A stretch of 64,000 nt of DNA, taken from the NCBI RefSeq assembly GCF_000264455.2, contig NC_017957.2, positions 186,001-250,000 of the forward strand. Reading direction: 5' to 3'. Each line of letters opens with the position of its first letter. The stretch's first letter is position 1. Of the stretch, positions 42,538 to 48,631 are shown piece by piece. Below the pieces are notes generated by a model. It ran no database searches. It had not been told where the DNA came from and worked only from the letters and a program-made list of their open reading frames with translations. The position numbers and the translations under genes are program-made. This DNA comes from Tistrella mobilis KA081020-065 (GTDB taxonomy: Bacteria > Pseudomonadota > Alphaproteobacteria > Tistrellales > Tistrellaceae).

Positions 42538-43027
42538 AAAGTCCTTAACGGCCCGCCAGATGAAGAATACCTCTCCGGGTATTCAGTCATGATGTGGGGT
42601 AAGGGCAGATACTTAGTTTTCATATATTTGAAGAACCATGCAGTGATCATGCGGGTGCGCGGGTTATTCATGCGCATGCAGGCGGCTCCCGGCGGGCTTG
42701 CATTTCGCGGCGCAGCACGATAAACCAGGATCATGCTGCAACGCGGCAGCCGGCATCCGTCTTCAGGATGTGCCCCTCTTCGGAATGTAGCCTGCGACCG
42801 ATGTAGACCCGGACCGGTACCGCCCGAGACTGACGTGGCCCGCCCGCCTGGCTTCCGCCCGGCCGCGGGGCCTGCTCGTGCGTATCGTTGTTCCCTGGTC
42901 CATCGCGCCCCGCGGCCCCGAACCCCCCTCTCATCTTCCGCAAGAATCATCTTCCGCAAGAAACTGTCCCGACCGCGTCGCCGGCCGCCCGGCTGCCGCA
43001 GTCGCAAACCGTCCGGAGACGTCCGTC
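42538..43027. other. intergenic region, 490 bases
   Basis: This region separates the divergent sensor kinase and SulP transporter genes. An A+T-rich part (about 42575-42670) probably holds promoters. It contains a hairpin GAATACC (42565-42571) with GGTATTC (42578-42584) around a 6-base loop. An open frame from 42878 extends the SulP frame upstream but has no membrane-protein character and no ribosome-binding site. No gene was found. Confidence 0.55.
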
Positions 43028-44536
43028 TTGACCACGCAATCCTCCCCATCGGCTGGCCCGCGCGGCCGGCTTCGCGCCGAATGGTTCGGCAATATCCGCG
43101 GCGACCTGCTTTCGGGCCTGGTGGTCGCGCTGGCGCTGATCCCCGAAGCGATCGCCTTTTCGATCATCGCCGGCGTCGACCCCAAGATCGGGCTCTACGC
43201 CTCGTTCTCGATCGCCGTCGTCACCGCCATCGCCGGCGGCCGGCCGGGCATGATCTCGGCTGCGACCGCCGCGACCGCCGTGCTGATGGGCTCGCTGGTC
43301 CGCGATCACGGGCTCGATTATCTGCTGGCCGCCACCGTGCTCGCCGGCCTGCTCCAGATCCTGGCCGGGCTGCTCCGCTTCGACTATGTGATGCGGTTCG
43401 TGTCGAACTCGGTGATGACCGGCTTCGTGAACGCACTCGCCATCCTGATCTTCATGGCCCAGCTGCCGGAACTGATCGGCGTGCCCTGGATCACCTATCC
43501 GATGGTCGCGGCCGGGCTCGCCATCATCTATCTCTTCCCCCATCTCACCCGCGCGGTGCCCTCGCCGCTGGTCTGCATCGTGGTGCTGACGGTGGTGGCG
43601 CTGTCGATGGGGCTGGAGCTGCGCACCGTGGGCGATATGGGCGAGCTGCCCTCCAGCTGGCCGGCCTTCCTGATCCCCGACGTGCCGCTGACGCTGGAAA
43701 CGCTGAAGATCATCCTGCCCTATTCGGCCGGCGTCGCCGCGGTCGGCCTGCTCGAAAGCCTGATGACCGCCCGCATCGTCGACGAGATGACCGACACCAG
43801 CGGCAGCCGCCGCCGGGAATGCTTCGGCCAGGGCCTGGCCAACACGGTCACGGGCTTTCTGGGCGGCATGGCCGGCTGCGCGATGATCGGCCAGTCGGTG
43901 ATCAACGTGAAATCCGGCGGCCGCGGCCGGCTGTCCTGCTTCTGCGCCGGTGTGTTCCTGCTGTTCCTGATCGTCGTTACCGGCGATCTGGTGGCGCAGA
44001 TCCCGATGGCGGCGCTGGTCGCGATCATGATCATGGTCTCGGTCGGCACCTTCCGCTGGTCGTCGCTGAAGGAACTGGCCACCCATCCGCGGGTGTCGAG
44101 CCTGGTGATGCTGGCGACCGTGGTGACGGTGATCGCCACCCATAATCTGGCGATCGGGGTGGGCGTGGGCGTGCTGCTCTCGGGCCTGTTCTTTGCCTGG
44201 AAGATTTCGCGCATCGTGCGGGTGACCTCGACGCTGTCGGAAGACGGCCGCACCCGCACCTATCTGGTCGAAGGCCAGGTCTTCTTCGCCTCGGCCGAGA
44301 TTTTCCAGTCCGGCTTCGATACCAAAGAGGATCTGGAGCGGGCGGTGATCGACGTCTCCCGCGCCCATATCTGGGACATTTCCAGCGTCGCGGCGCTTGA
44401 TGCCGTGGTGCTGAAATTCCGCCGCCACGGCACCCGCGTCGACATCCTGGGCCTGAACGAGGCCAGCGCCTCGATCGTCGACCGGCTGGCGCTGCACGAC
44501 AAGCCGGGTGCGGCCGGGCGGCCGGCGGGGCATTGA
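43028..44536 (+). CDS. SulP family anion transporter with STAS domain
   Basis: The likely start is a TTG at 43028 with GGAGA 8 bases upstream, giving 502 residues. About 10-12 helices carry the SulP signatures: [75 protein letters not shown]-terminal STAS domain follows ([40 protein letters not shown]). Bacterial SulP proteins move sulfate, bicarbonate or dicarboxylates; no carbonic anhydrase is fused or adjacent, so the ion is undetermined. Confidence 0.9.
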
Positions 44537-44715: not shown

Positions 44716-44997
44716 ATGGCGGGTGCAGTCAAACGCTCTATCGGTCTGTCTCCGCAGCGCGCGGCCTTCGTCGACCGGTTGCTCGCCACGGGCGCCTATG
44801 CCGATGTGGATGAGGTGATCGATGCAGGGCTCCGCGCCCTGCAAGATCAGGATGCAGAGATCGAGCGCCGGCTGCGAGAGGATGTTGCCCCGGTCTATGA
44901 TGCCGTCGAAGCGGATCCTGGCCGCGTCATCCCTGTTGATGACGCCTTCGATCGTCTGCGCGCCTTGCATGCCAGTTGCGTGAAGGCCGGCAAGTGA
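44716..44997 (+). CDS. ParD-like antitoxin without a visible toxin partner
   Basis: The ATG at 44716 gives 93 residues. The ribbon-helix-helix N-terminus ([20 protein letters not shown], then [20 protein letters not shown]) is that of ParD/CopG antitoxins, with a toxin-binding C-terminus ([20 protein letters not shown]). A parE gene should follow within a few bases, but none of the frames after 44997 resembles ParE or RelE. The gene is therefore an orphan or the remnant of a lost pair. It lies directly upstream of the CRISPR leader. Confidence 0.72.
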
Positions 44998-45084
44998 GCC
45001 GTGGCGTTGCCCTCGCGGGCCTTCACCCTGGTCGATGCAGGGACCGCCTCCGCAGACCCACCACAAATCTGCCCCCGTCTCGCC

Positions 45085-45260
45085 CGCGAACCCCAAGCTC
45101 CCGTGAAAATCCCGGGAGGTTCGCGAAAAGAAATTGTCCCGTTTTTCAATTGGTTAAATTTCACAATTTATTCATGTTCATACTATGGAATGACTTCCAG
45201 AAGAGGTTCGCGCGGATCGCCTTTTTCCGGCCCCCGATTCAGGCTATTAAGAGGGGGTGG
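45085..45260 (+). promoter_or_regulatory. CRISPR leader with inverted repeat
   Basis: The stretch before the first repeat is A+T-rich at 45125-45190, in contrast to the neighbourhood. It starts with nested inverted repeats: CGCGAACC (45085-45092) with GGTTCGCG (45118-45125), and CTCCCG (45098-45103) with CGGGAG (45113-45118). A CGCGAACC...GGTTCGCG block of this kind resembles what I recall from type I-C leaders. The orientation agrees with the repeat ending in ATTGAAAC. Confidence 0.65.
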
Positions 45261-46588
45261 GTCGCACCCTTGCGGGTGCGTGGATTGAAACGCGGGGCAC
45301 CGGTACAGCGTGGAAGCCCGCGCGAGTCGCACCCTTGCGGGTGCGTGGATTGAAACCGGATCAGTGCCCCGGGGGCGGCGGCGCTGACCCGTCGCACCCT
45401 TGCGGGTGCGTGGATTGAAACGAAATCGACTTTGTCGAGGTGGCGCGATCTGGCGTCGCACCCTTGCGGGTGCGTGGATTGAAACCGCCAAAACGCGCGT
45501 CTGACGATTCACCGTGGCGTCGCACCCTTGCGGGTGCGTGGATTGAAACCCTGAGTGTGTAACCGCACTCACGAATCAAATCGTCGCACCCTTGCGGGTG
45601 CGTGGATTGAAACCACTGGAGCCCGGCGACGCTCAAAAAAACCTTCGGGTCGCACCCTTGCGGGTGCGTGGATTGAAACACGCCCGAGGCCGATCCTGGC
45701 GATGGTGCCGCCGGTCGCACCCTTGCGGGTGCGTGGATTGAAACTGGCCATCGCCGCGGCCCTGGAAGCGGAGGGCCGTCGCACCCTTGCGGGTGCGTGG
45801 ATTGAAACCGTACTTCCGGAACGGCGAGGCCGTGAACGTAAAGTCGCACCCTTGCGGGTGCGTGGATTGAAACAGCTGCCGCGGCGCCCGCGCCCGGACC
45901 ATCCCGTGTCGCACCCTTGCGGGTGCGTGGATTGAAACTGGTTGGTTGATGTCAGGCTGCATCAGGGGTCTCGTCGCACCCTTGCGGGTGCGTGGATTGA
46001 AACGCGGCGCGCTCGACCAGGTATTCCATAGCCGCGGACGTCGCACCCTTGCGGGTGCGTGGATTGAAACGACGCCTGCGTGGCCTTCGCAGGTCACGAT
46101 CTGGTCGCACCCTTGCGGGTGCGTGGATTGAAACCATGCCCACGATATTCGCGCGAGCAGGCGGGCGCGTCGCACCCTTGCGGGTGCGTGGATTGAAACC
46201 GGGTCGGATCTTGGCTGGAGGAGGCTTCCTGATGGTCGCACCCTTGCGGGTGCGTGGATTGAAACGACTCGGACGCACTGGCCGCCGCGGAGGACAACCG
46301 TCGCACCCTTGCGGGTGCGTGGATTGAAACCGTCGGCGTCGGCGAAGGCGGACATCAAGCCCGAGTCGCACCCTTGCGGGTGCGTGGATTGAAACACGGC
46401 CGAGCGCCCAAGCTATGCCGAGCGACGCACGTCGCACCCTTGCGGGTGCGTGGATTGAAACACGGCATCGGATTTGATGCCGTCGAAAGGAGCGGTCGCA
46501 CCCTTGCGGGTGCGTGGATTGAAACTTCGGCTGCCCGACGGCACGCCGTGCACCACGGTCGCACCCTTGCGGGTGCGTGGATTGAAAC
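45261..46588 (+). CRISPR. CRISPR array, type I-C-like, 21 repeats and 20 spacers
   Basis: Each repeat is 31 bases, begins GTCGCACCCTTGCGG and ends TGCGTGGATTGAAAC. It can fold as CGCACCC/GGGTGCG with a TTGC loop. All 21 copies are identical as far as I can read, including the last. Repeats start at 45261, 45326, 45391, 45455, 45519, 45583, 45649, 45714, 45778, 45843, 45908, 45973, 46040, 46104, 46169, 46235, 46300, 46365, 46431, 46495 and 46558. Spacers are 32-36 bases, mostly 33-34, and all differ. The fold and ATTGAAAC end match subtype I-C, although I-C repeats are usually 32 bases. No cas gene is present in the window. The glycogen operon ends 48 bases beyond the array on the opposite strand. 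Confidence 0.97.
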
Positions 46589-46636
46589 CGAGGCCGAGAC
46601 CGTATGGATCGGCGCCATCGCCTCGGCTTTCCCGGC

Positions 46637-48631
46637 TCATCGACCCCGGGTCACCCCCTTCTCCCGCCCCATCTTCACCCGCCCCACCCGCCGCACCACC
46701 GCCGGCGTCTCCACCAGCCCCGGCAGGGGGGCCGGCATGCGGCGGCGCCAGTTGGGGTGTTCGTGGATGGTGCCGGGCAGGTTGGGCTGGTCGTCCAGCC
46801 CGACCAGGTCTTCCAGCGGGGCCAGCACCAGGGGGGCGCGGCTGCGGCCCAGGAAGTCGAGGGCCGCGTCGATCACCGGGGCGGGCGTGTCGGGGGCGGG
46901 TTCGGGGCCGGTGGCGGTGCCGGCATTGGTGAAGGCGGTCCAGAGCCGGGTGCGGTCGCGGGTGCGGGTCTCCTGCGCCAGTGCCGCGGTCTCACCGGGC
47001 CCGAACAGCGAGAGGCGCTCGCGCCAGGCGATGTCGAGCCCCTGCCACCAGCCGGCGGTGGTCGGCAGGTCGTGGGTGGTGGTGGTGGCGGTGATGCCGT
47101 CCTCCCAGGCCTCCGGGGCGCGGAAACCGTCCGTCCCGTCGCGTTCGAACCACAGCACCCGGGTGCCCATCAACCCGCGGGCGGCCAGCACCGCGCGGAA
47201 GCCGTCGGGCACCGTGCCCAGATCCTCGCCGATCACCACCGCCCGGCGGCGCTGCGAGACATCCGCCACCACATCCAGCATCTCCGCCAGCGGATAGCGC
47301 AGATAGGCGCCTTCGGCCGGTGACGCGCCGTCGGGGATCAGCCAGAGCCGCATCAGCCCCAGAACATGGTCGATGCGGATGCCGCCGGCGGCGGCGAGGG
47401 TCGCGTCCAGCATCTGGCGGAAGCCGGCGCAACCGGTTTCCAGCATCACCCGCGGCGACGGCGCCGCCAGCCCCCAGTTCTGGCCCAGCGGGTTGAACAG
47501 ATCGGGCGGCGCGCCGATGCTCGCCCCGGTCAGGATACCCGCCCCGTTCAGATCGCCGGCGCGCTCGCTCCACGACTGCGCGCCGCTGCCGTCGACACCG
47601 ATGGCGAGGTCGGCGATCAGCCCCACCCCCATCCCGGCATCGGTGGCCGCCCTCTGCGCCCCGGCCAGGCCGCGGAAGGCGAGCCATTGCCGCAGCCGCG
47701 CCCGATCCACCGCCTCCGCCGCGCTTTTGGCCATATTGGCCACAGATGAGCCATGTGGATCGCGAAAGTCTTGTGGCCAGGATGGCCATCCGCCGGTCAG
47801 CCCCTGCTCCCGAAACCGGGCATCCAGCACCTCGAAGACCGCATGATCGTCCAGCGCGCGGCCGCGTGCGGCCCGGAAGGCCTGCCAGTCGGCATCGGCG
47901 GCAAGCCGGGCGCCATGGGCCTTCAGCAGATGGTCGATCACCGCCCGTTTGACCGCCGCCACCTCGGGCCAGTCCACCAGCGGCGCCGCCGCGGCGGCAC
48001 GGGCGCGCGCCGCAAGCCCCAGCGTCTCCAGCGCCCGCGCGGTCTCCGCGGGGCCGGCGATGTCGTCGGGGTCGATGATCAGCTCGTTCAGGAACAGCCG
48101 GCTGGACGGGGCATAAGGGCTCCAGCGATGCGGATCGGCGCCGAACAGGGCATGGACCGGGCTCACCCCCAGGCAGCAGGCCCCGGCTTTGCCCAGGCTG
48201 CGGGCGAGCCCGGCCAGCGCGGTGGTATCGCCGCAGCCCGGATCGCCCGATCGCCGCAGCCCGTAAAGCTGCGCCGTCGCCCCCCAGGCCCGCGGAGGCC
48301 GGCCGGGCTGGCCCAGGGCCGCGTCCAGGCCGAAGCAGCGCGGGCCCATTGCCGCATCCGGCCGCGGCGGCGGCAAAGCGGCCGCCCGCTCCAGGCTCTC
48401 GCGGATCTGTGCCGGGCTGTCGGCCGGCAGGTCCAGCACCGCCAGCAGCGCGCGCAGCGTGTCGGGGGTCACACTGTGTCCCTGGCCCGCGGCATCGGTC
48501 CAGCTGGTGGCGATGCCGGCGGCGGCGGCCAGGGCCTGCAACTGTTGATTAAAATCATTACCGCCTGTGGTTGCAGATTGATCGGTTGTGGCTCGGTTAA
48601 TTATAGTCCTTCCGGTTGTATTCGGGCTCAT
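46637..48631 (-). CDS. malQ: 4-alpha-glucanotransferase (amylomaltase)
   Basis: This 664-residue GH77 enzyme moves alpha-1,4-glucan segments between maltodextrins and releases glucose. Visible signatures are ADLAIGVDGSGAQSWS, GASIGAPPDLFNPLGQNWGL, the nucleophile Asp in GGIRIDHVLGLMRLW, the acid Glu in VVIGEDLGTVPDGF, and TTTTHDLPTTAGWW. The first ~25 residues are unusually Thr/Asn-rich and their coding DNA is A+T-richer. The ATG overlaps the glgX-treZ stop (ATGA). It is the last gene of the operon, and no terminator is visible before the CRISPR array. Confidence 0.9.
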   Translation of the reverse strand: MSPNTTGRTIINRATTDQSATTGGNDFNQQLQALAAAAGIATSWTDAAGQGHSVTPDTLRALLAVLDLPADSPAQIRESLERAAALPPPRPDAAMGPRCFGLDAALGQPGRPPRAWGATAQLYGLRRSGDPGCGDTTALAGLARSLGKAGACCLGVSPVHALFGADPHRWSPYAPSSRLFLNELIIDPDDIAGPAETARALETLGLAARARAAAAAPLVDWPEVAAVKRAVIDHLLKAHGARLAADADWQAFRAARGRALDDHAVFEVLDARFREQGLTGGWPSWPQDFRDPHGSSVANMAKSAAEAVDRARLRQWLAFRGLAGAQRAATDAGMGVGLIADLAIGVDGSGAQSWSERAGDLNGAGILTGASIGAPPDLFNPLGQNWGLAAPSPRVMLETGCAGFRQMLDATLAAAGGIRIDHVLGLMRLWLIPDGASPAEGAYLRYPLAEMLDVVADVSQRRRAVVIGEDLGTVPDGFRAVLAARGLMGTRVLWFERDGTDGFRAPEAWEDGITATTTTHDLPTTAGWWQGLDIAWRERLSLFGPGETAALAQETRTRDRTRLWTAFTNAGTATGPEPAPDTPAPVIDAALDFLGRSRAPLVLAPLEDLVGLDDQPNLPGTIHEHPNWRRRMPAPLPGLVETPAVVRRVGRVKMGREKGVTRGR

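Follow-up and report, generated by a model that had tools for sequence, protein, structure and literature searches.

The locus studied here raises the question of how a well-kept CRISPR array is served when no cas genes lie around it. The window, i.e. the whole stretch of 64,000 nucleotides that was analysed, corresponds to positions 186001-250000 of contig C2 in the genome of Tistrella mobilis KA081020-065 (G000; 6.51 Mb, 5 contigs). An earlier note, made from this stretch alone, had described a type I-C-like array of 21 identical 31-base repeats with 20 distinct spacers of 32-36 bases, and this description held on re-examination. All repeat copies are identical from the first to the last base of the array, and the 20 spacers all differ from each other. 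The 31-nt repeat folds into a 7-bp hairpin of the I-C form, and a cognate I-C operon is present in the genome. The repeat ends in ATTGAAAC, a handle which is used by type III systems too. The leader was claimed to be on the correct side; it is on the 5' side and aligns with the leaders of other arrays of the genus. Domain matches bore out the ParD-like antitoxin and the SulP gene reported on the leader side (Table 1). The antitoxin is a neighbour that stands outside the CRISPR system, and no copy of it was found in the loci fetched from two relatives, G042 (same species, 60 contigs) and G001 (same genus). Whole-genome searches for the Cas1, Cas8c and Cas7 families gave no match inside the window, in agreement with the claim that no cas genes are nearby, and a simple scan of positions 45000-46900 revealed no sigma-70-like promoter. 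Small toxin-antitoxin-like genes were seen beside several array sites, or at a position occupied by an array in a relative; some of these genes were recognised by eye only.

Table 1. Coordinates of the features described (positions without a contig are those of the window; others are given as genome and contig)
Feature	Location	Strand	Remarks
CRISPR array	45261..46588	+	21 identical 31-nt repeats, 20 spacers of 32-36 nt
Leader, 181 nt	45080..45260	+	aligned with sister-array leaders
ParD-type antitoxin	44716..44997	+	PF03693, 24.2 bits, cut-off 21; left neighbour
SulP transporter	42878..44536	+	PF00916 and PF01740; marks left flank of array site
4-alpha-glucanotransferase (malQ-like)	46637..48631	-	PF02446; marks right flank of array site
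Window-repeat array	G000:C2:143 kb		3 copies
Window-repeat array	G000:C2:370 kb		15 copies
Window-repeat array	G000:C3:187 kb		2 copies
32-nt variant-repeat array	G000:C4:504.6 kb		~78 kb from I-C operon
32-nt variant, nearly dead copy	G000:C1:1441 kb
Leaders without repeats	G000:C2:386.9 kb; G000:C3:196.0 kb
Type I-C operon cas3-cas5c-cas8c-cas7c-cas4-cas1-cas2	G000:C4:418604-426840	-	complete
Type III CRISPR locus	G000:C2:408000-427900		RT-Cas1 fusion (663 aa), Cas6, 754-aa Csm3-like protein, two arrays
Type II locus	G000:C4:558000-577900		1090-aa Cas9, Cas1, adjoining array
AT-rich-looking DNA, ~6 kb, with a long gene	G001:C4:1031000-1050900, from ~12.8 kb in		at the place expected for cas4-1-2
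~354-nt unit	G000:C2:371968-372321; G001:C2:57-61 kb; G001:C2:69-71 kb
Toxin-antitoxin-like genes	44716-44997; G042:C2:99719-100625; G000:C4:544860-546140; G000:C2:151100-151780		array-adjacent or facing a relative's array

When the whole genome was searched for Cas7, Cas8c and Cas1, as the earlier note had advised, a complete I-C operon was found on another contig, C4. All seven of its genes have best PADLOC matches of the I-C kind, internal stops are absent, and Cas3 carries the HD, Walker and DEAH motifs. Solved relatives were matched by Cas1 (E 4e-91), Cas3 (5e-102) and Cas5c (2e-98). Thus, what lies just outside the window is not a complete operon with an array linked to it; the operon is far away, and no repeat within 7 substitutions was present in the 19.9 kb around it. 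Instead, cas2 is directly followed by a decayed leader without repeats (from about C4:418580 downwards), which scored 63 against the leaders, whereas the best of 297 control windows scored 32. Since the operon has no linked repeat to compare, this stub provides the link between the operon and the leaders, and it fits the loss of an ancestral array that may once have adjoined cas2. The possibility raised earlier that cas had been lost recently is therefore not supported: cas is present, and it is the array beside the operon that is missing, with a leader stub remaining. The region after cas2 in G042 gave a best leader score of 32, which equals the best of the 297 controls, so that a leader remnant there is only suggestive.

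Three CRISPR systems are present in G000, and a linked array is absent only for the I-C one. The type II locus on C4 has an array next to its genes, and the type III locus on C2, which encodes an RT-Cas1 fusion, has arrays of its own with a different repeat; for three of its open frames (282-423 aa) PADLOC gave no match at E 1e-20. As the type III locus lies on the same contig as the window, encodes both RT-Cas1 and Cas6, and belongs to a type that also uses the ATTGAAAC handle, crRNA production or spacer acquisition for the window array might be handled mainly by such a system instead. However, the type III arrays differ in repeat, whereas the window repeat has the I-C hairpin form and an intact I-C operon exists, and we regard this explanation as very improbable.

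The presence of a second array with the same repeat was also checked, and three more were found, two on C2 and one on C3. Allowing up to 3 mismatches, the genome contains 41 copies of the window repeat (39 exact, 2 with one mismatch), which fall in four arrays, as against 0 for the reversed pattern taken as chance control. The window array is the longest among the G000 arrays read. Arrays with 32-nt variant repeats, in which the stem is kept, were also found; in the C1:473-kb array of G001, one G-C pair of the stem has become A-T on both sides. The contig that carries the operon bears one such variant array, yet away from cas. C2, C3 and C4 each begin at the start codon of an open frame, like rotated finished circles, but these first genes are not replication genes. 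In size, the contigs agree with the published chromosome and megaplasmids of T. mobilis, and the three may be separate replicons. A unit of about 354 nt adjoins array sites; in G001 several copies of it stand head to tail, and in G000 there is a single match over its whole length. The position at C2:151 kb of G000, which faces the 575-kb array of G001, was considered as an empty site and rejected: other DNA, toxin-antitoxin-like by eye, is present there, so the site is not cleanly empty.

The arrays share a leader as well as a repeat. The window leader opens with an inverted repeat at its 5' end, followed by an AT-rich middle, and contains two copies of GGTTCGCG 87 nt apart, the second being 56 nt upstream of the first repeat. 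When 19 elements of G000 and G001 were aligned, homology began at the inverted repeat; in a few elements it reaches about 20 nt beyond, and copies from one genomic site have their flanks in common. Two GGTTCGCG copies, with at most one mismatch each, lie 86-88 nt apart in 20/20 leaders, and the second copy is 54-58 nt upstream of the first repeat in all 19 leaders that reach a repeat; four elements that are shortened or decayed are excluded from this count. The part of the leader between the two copies is absent in two elements, the C3 mini-array and the one at C2:38 kb of G001. So many leader copies at different sites reveal the positions that are kept, and may locate the docking signals of type I-C adaptation.

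Comparison with G042 was most informative for the window site itself. This genome has a complete I-C operon, with 93-99% protein identity to that of G000, and, with up to 3 mismatches allowed, 152 copies of the repeat, for 100 of which the positions were listed. Its array at C2:100802 is flanked by the same SulP and malQ genes as the window array; the two leaders are 96% identical, the left flank is 91% identical and the right flank is conserved. Of the 37 spacers in this G042 array, none is common to the 20 of the window, so the spacers have been replaced since G000 and G042 split. While the turnover itself was observed, its agent would be I-C acquisition acting in trans. In a tree of the leaders, same-site copies from different genomes clustered together at six sites (support 0.85-1.00), which indicates that the array sites are older than the split of the genomes and that their contents have turned over.

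The third genome, G001, bears nine arrays, spread over three contigs; in two of the arrays the repeats are variants. At its operon locus cas3, cas5c, cas8c and cas7c are present, and cas4, cas1 and cas2 were not found there, their place being taken by other DNA (Table 1). Cas1 matches occur at three places elsewhere in this genome, at E 5e-59 or weaker, as compared to 7e-94 for the I-C Cas1 of G000. The G001 arrays are tidy although cas4-1-2 is absent at the operon locus, and tidiness alone is thus no proof of ongoing acquisition. At C4:957 kb of G001 a short leader piece is fused to a repeat remnant, the deletion scar of a variant array; as both remain, the locus was rejected as a clean empty site. 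In the C2:556000-570900 stretch of the same genome, a lone repeat (565239), its trailer duplicated, and an array of five repeats are separated by about 1.4 kb, and an 890-nt flank segment is present in two copies. A REP-like palindrome was seen near several array trailers. Its copies in the fetched loci number 62 (G001, 268 kb), 13 (G042, 119 kb) and 2 (G000, 330 kb); as these loci were picked around arrays, the counts are not genome rates.

These observations bear on whether the window array is an inert relic which, in spite of the intact operon, is neither extended nor used any more and owes its tidiness to chance or recency. The tidy arrays that G001 retains without cas4-1-2 at its operon would agree with this, as would the C3 sister array without the middle of its leader and the window's lack of a promoter-like site in the simple scan. 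Against it, 21/21 repeats are identical and the leader is of full length, the I-C operon has no internal stops, and the replacement of all spacers at the same site since the split from G042 is not what a relic would show. We therefore consider a relic unlikely.

The separation of operon and arrays recurs in each of the three genomes examined from the genus. Among 387 genomes of the class, cas8c was found in 12, of which 3 are of this genus. No array was found beside the I-C operon of G000, G001 or G042 in the 20-kb stretches around cas8c, which extended 8-13 kb past the gene and 5-10 kb before it. In contrast, 7 of 10 other alphaproteobacterial I-C loci have an array, which begins some 3.1-3.3 kb downstream of cas8c; at the remaining 3 the contig ends 3.2-3.3 kb downstream, where an array would start. 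The 10 loci represent the 9 genomes outside the genus, with a short G116 fragment omitted. Beyond the genus, the leader-repeat pattern had no match in a genome-contig collection from which near genomes were possibly left out, so that absence is unproven; with the same reservation for that collection, 67 stretches fitted the Cas8c pattern and 0 were confirmed. A near search of the array region against plasmids, again with near genomes possibly left out, gave no match.

Spacers were read from five arrays each of G000 (43 spacers) and G042 (105, with about 43 repeats unread), and a further 91, of which 8 were counted twice, were listed for G001. With a limit of E 1e-4, no spacer was common to different genomes among these sets. 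Three exact duplicates and two partial pairs occurred inside G042 and G001, and at a looser limit different arrays were linked by 12-13-nt identities only. No protospacer was found in comparisons with phages, plasmids, viral contigs and the fetched loci. The whole window array matched one phage record at 8 places (~70% identity), probably driven by the repeats, and 8 plasmid records (66-76% identity), which were likewise taken as repeat-driven. Array C2c hit the same phage record as the window array, besides one 27-nt match at E = 1, and exact 22-24-nt pieces of window spacers 1, 3, 5, 9 and 15 gave 0 matches in viral contigs. Partial matches of 15-26 nt between G000 or G001 spacers and the fetched loci were not accepted as targets; one of them corresponds to a degenerate copy within the trailer of C2c.

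Orphan arrays directed against incoming I-C systems, or carried as mini-arrays by phages, could also give an array without cas genes, and such arrays have been described, for example the I-F orphans of E. coli (PMC8616872, in excerpt). An anti-cas array would be expected to carry spacers against cas genes of its own subtype. Among the matches listed, however, the longest between a window spacer and the I-C operon of G000 or G042 spans no more than 17 nt (94%), and a search of viral contigs for exact copies of the repeat gave 0. With 21 repeats rather than a few, 20 spacers, a full leader and a setting beside transporter and carbohydrate genes, the window array hardly resembles either kind, and we give this origin next to no weight.

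The window array is not an orphan: its repeat and leader are common to other arrays and its cognate operon is intact elsewhere in the genome, as expected of a remote array. The earlier proposal that a cas locus elsewhere in the genome serves it in trans is supported by the complete C4 operon and the three arrays with the same repeat. In our reading, which we hold with a probability of about 85%, the remote arrays with a common leader and repeat would be fed and read in trans by the one distant I-C operon. This reading draws on the complete operon, the 41 repeat places, the common leader, the stub and the spacer turnover at the same site in G042, all evident from the sequences. It draws further on the genus operons without an adjoining array, as against 7/10 other I-C loci with one, and on the two other CRISPR systems of G000, which keep arrays beside their genes. 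Counted against it were the lack of protospacers and of a promoter-like site in the searches described, the tidy G001 arrays and the control-level score of the G042 stub.

Under service in trans, Cas1-Cas2-Cas4 from the C4 operon would recognise the common leader-repeat junction, and spacers would be inserted at the leader end of the window array and its sister arrays wherever these are located. The window array would be transcribed from the leader side, Cas5c of the distant operon would cut the hairpin repeats to yield crRNAs, and these would be used by Cas7c, Cas8c and Cas3 against invaders; transcription, processing, acquisition and interference would thus all take place in trans. The array formerly beside cas2 would have been lost, leaving the leader remnant. 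A wider and more tentative proposal, to which we give somewhat less than even odds, is that the I-C system of the genus is a hub with satellites. An array-less operon would serve memory banks that are stable in site and spread over several replicons, the ~181-nt leader with paired GGTTCGCG would suffice for docking in trans, and banks would be gained and lost as modules. G001 might then be a natural read-only version that dropped the adaptation genes and kept the effector and the banks. Testing would be most worthwhile for the common leader architecture and this hub-and-satellite reading. An apparent orphan array becomes a testable trans-acting set, for which three related genomes offer an intact (G000), a probably read-only (G001) and a larger state (G042, 152 repeats). 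Labelling arrays as orphan from a single window is unsafe without the whole genome.

Remote arrays are already known, and the Tistrella case therefore adds an example to a known, less common arrangement. Among titles and abstract openings on Tistrella and CRISPR, nothing visibly concerned these arrays. In the excerpted survey PMC5294841, 12% (236/2001) of type I cas loci were isolated, the type I-F system of Zymomonas mobilis being an example with distant arrays. As in Zymomonas, the Tistrella cas locus has no array within 10 kb and the arrays are elsewhere in the genome; in contrast to it, the Tistrella system is I-C, extends over several contigs and has a leader stub beside cas. A 2026 survey (PMC12814883), as excerpted, found that arrays with the same consensus repeat are updated alike whatever their distance from cas, and that type I-C arrays are mostly close after cas. 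Distance-independent updating, as proposed here for the Tistrella I-C arrays, is in line with the former conclusion, whereas the operon without a close array departs from the latter trend. A plasmid survey (PMC9071438) reported, in the part available, many orphan arrays, shorter on average, and suggested that they use host Cas proteins in trans. The window array resembles these in being a cas-less array on a secondary replicon, inferred as such here, and differs in being the longest read in its genome and in having its operon identified. The E. coli I-F orphan arrays described in the excerpt of PMC8616872 are an example of the anti-cas kind. Beyond what the excerpt of PMC5294841 offers, the Tistrella case has been compared site by site across three genomes, which makes it a clear new example of the remote-array kind with a comparison of unusual completeness.
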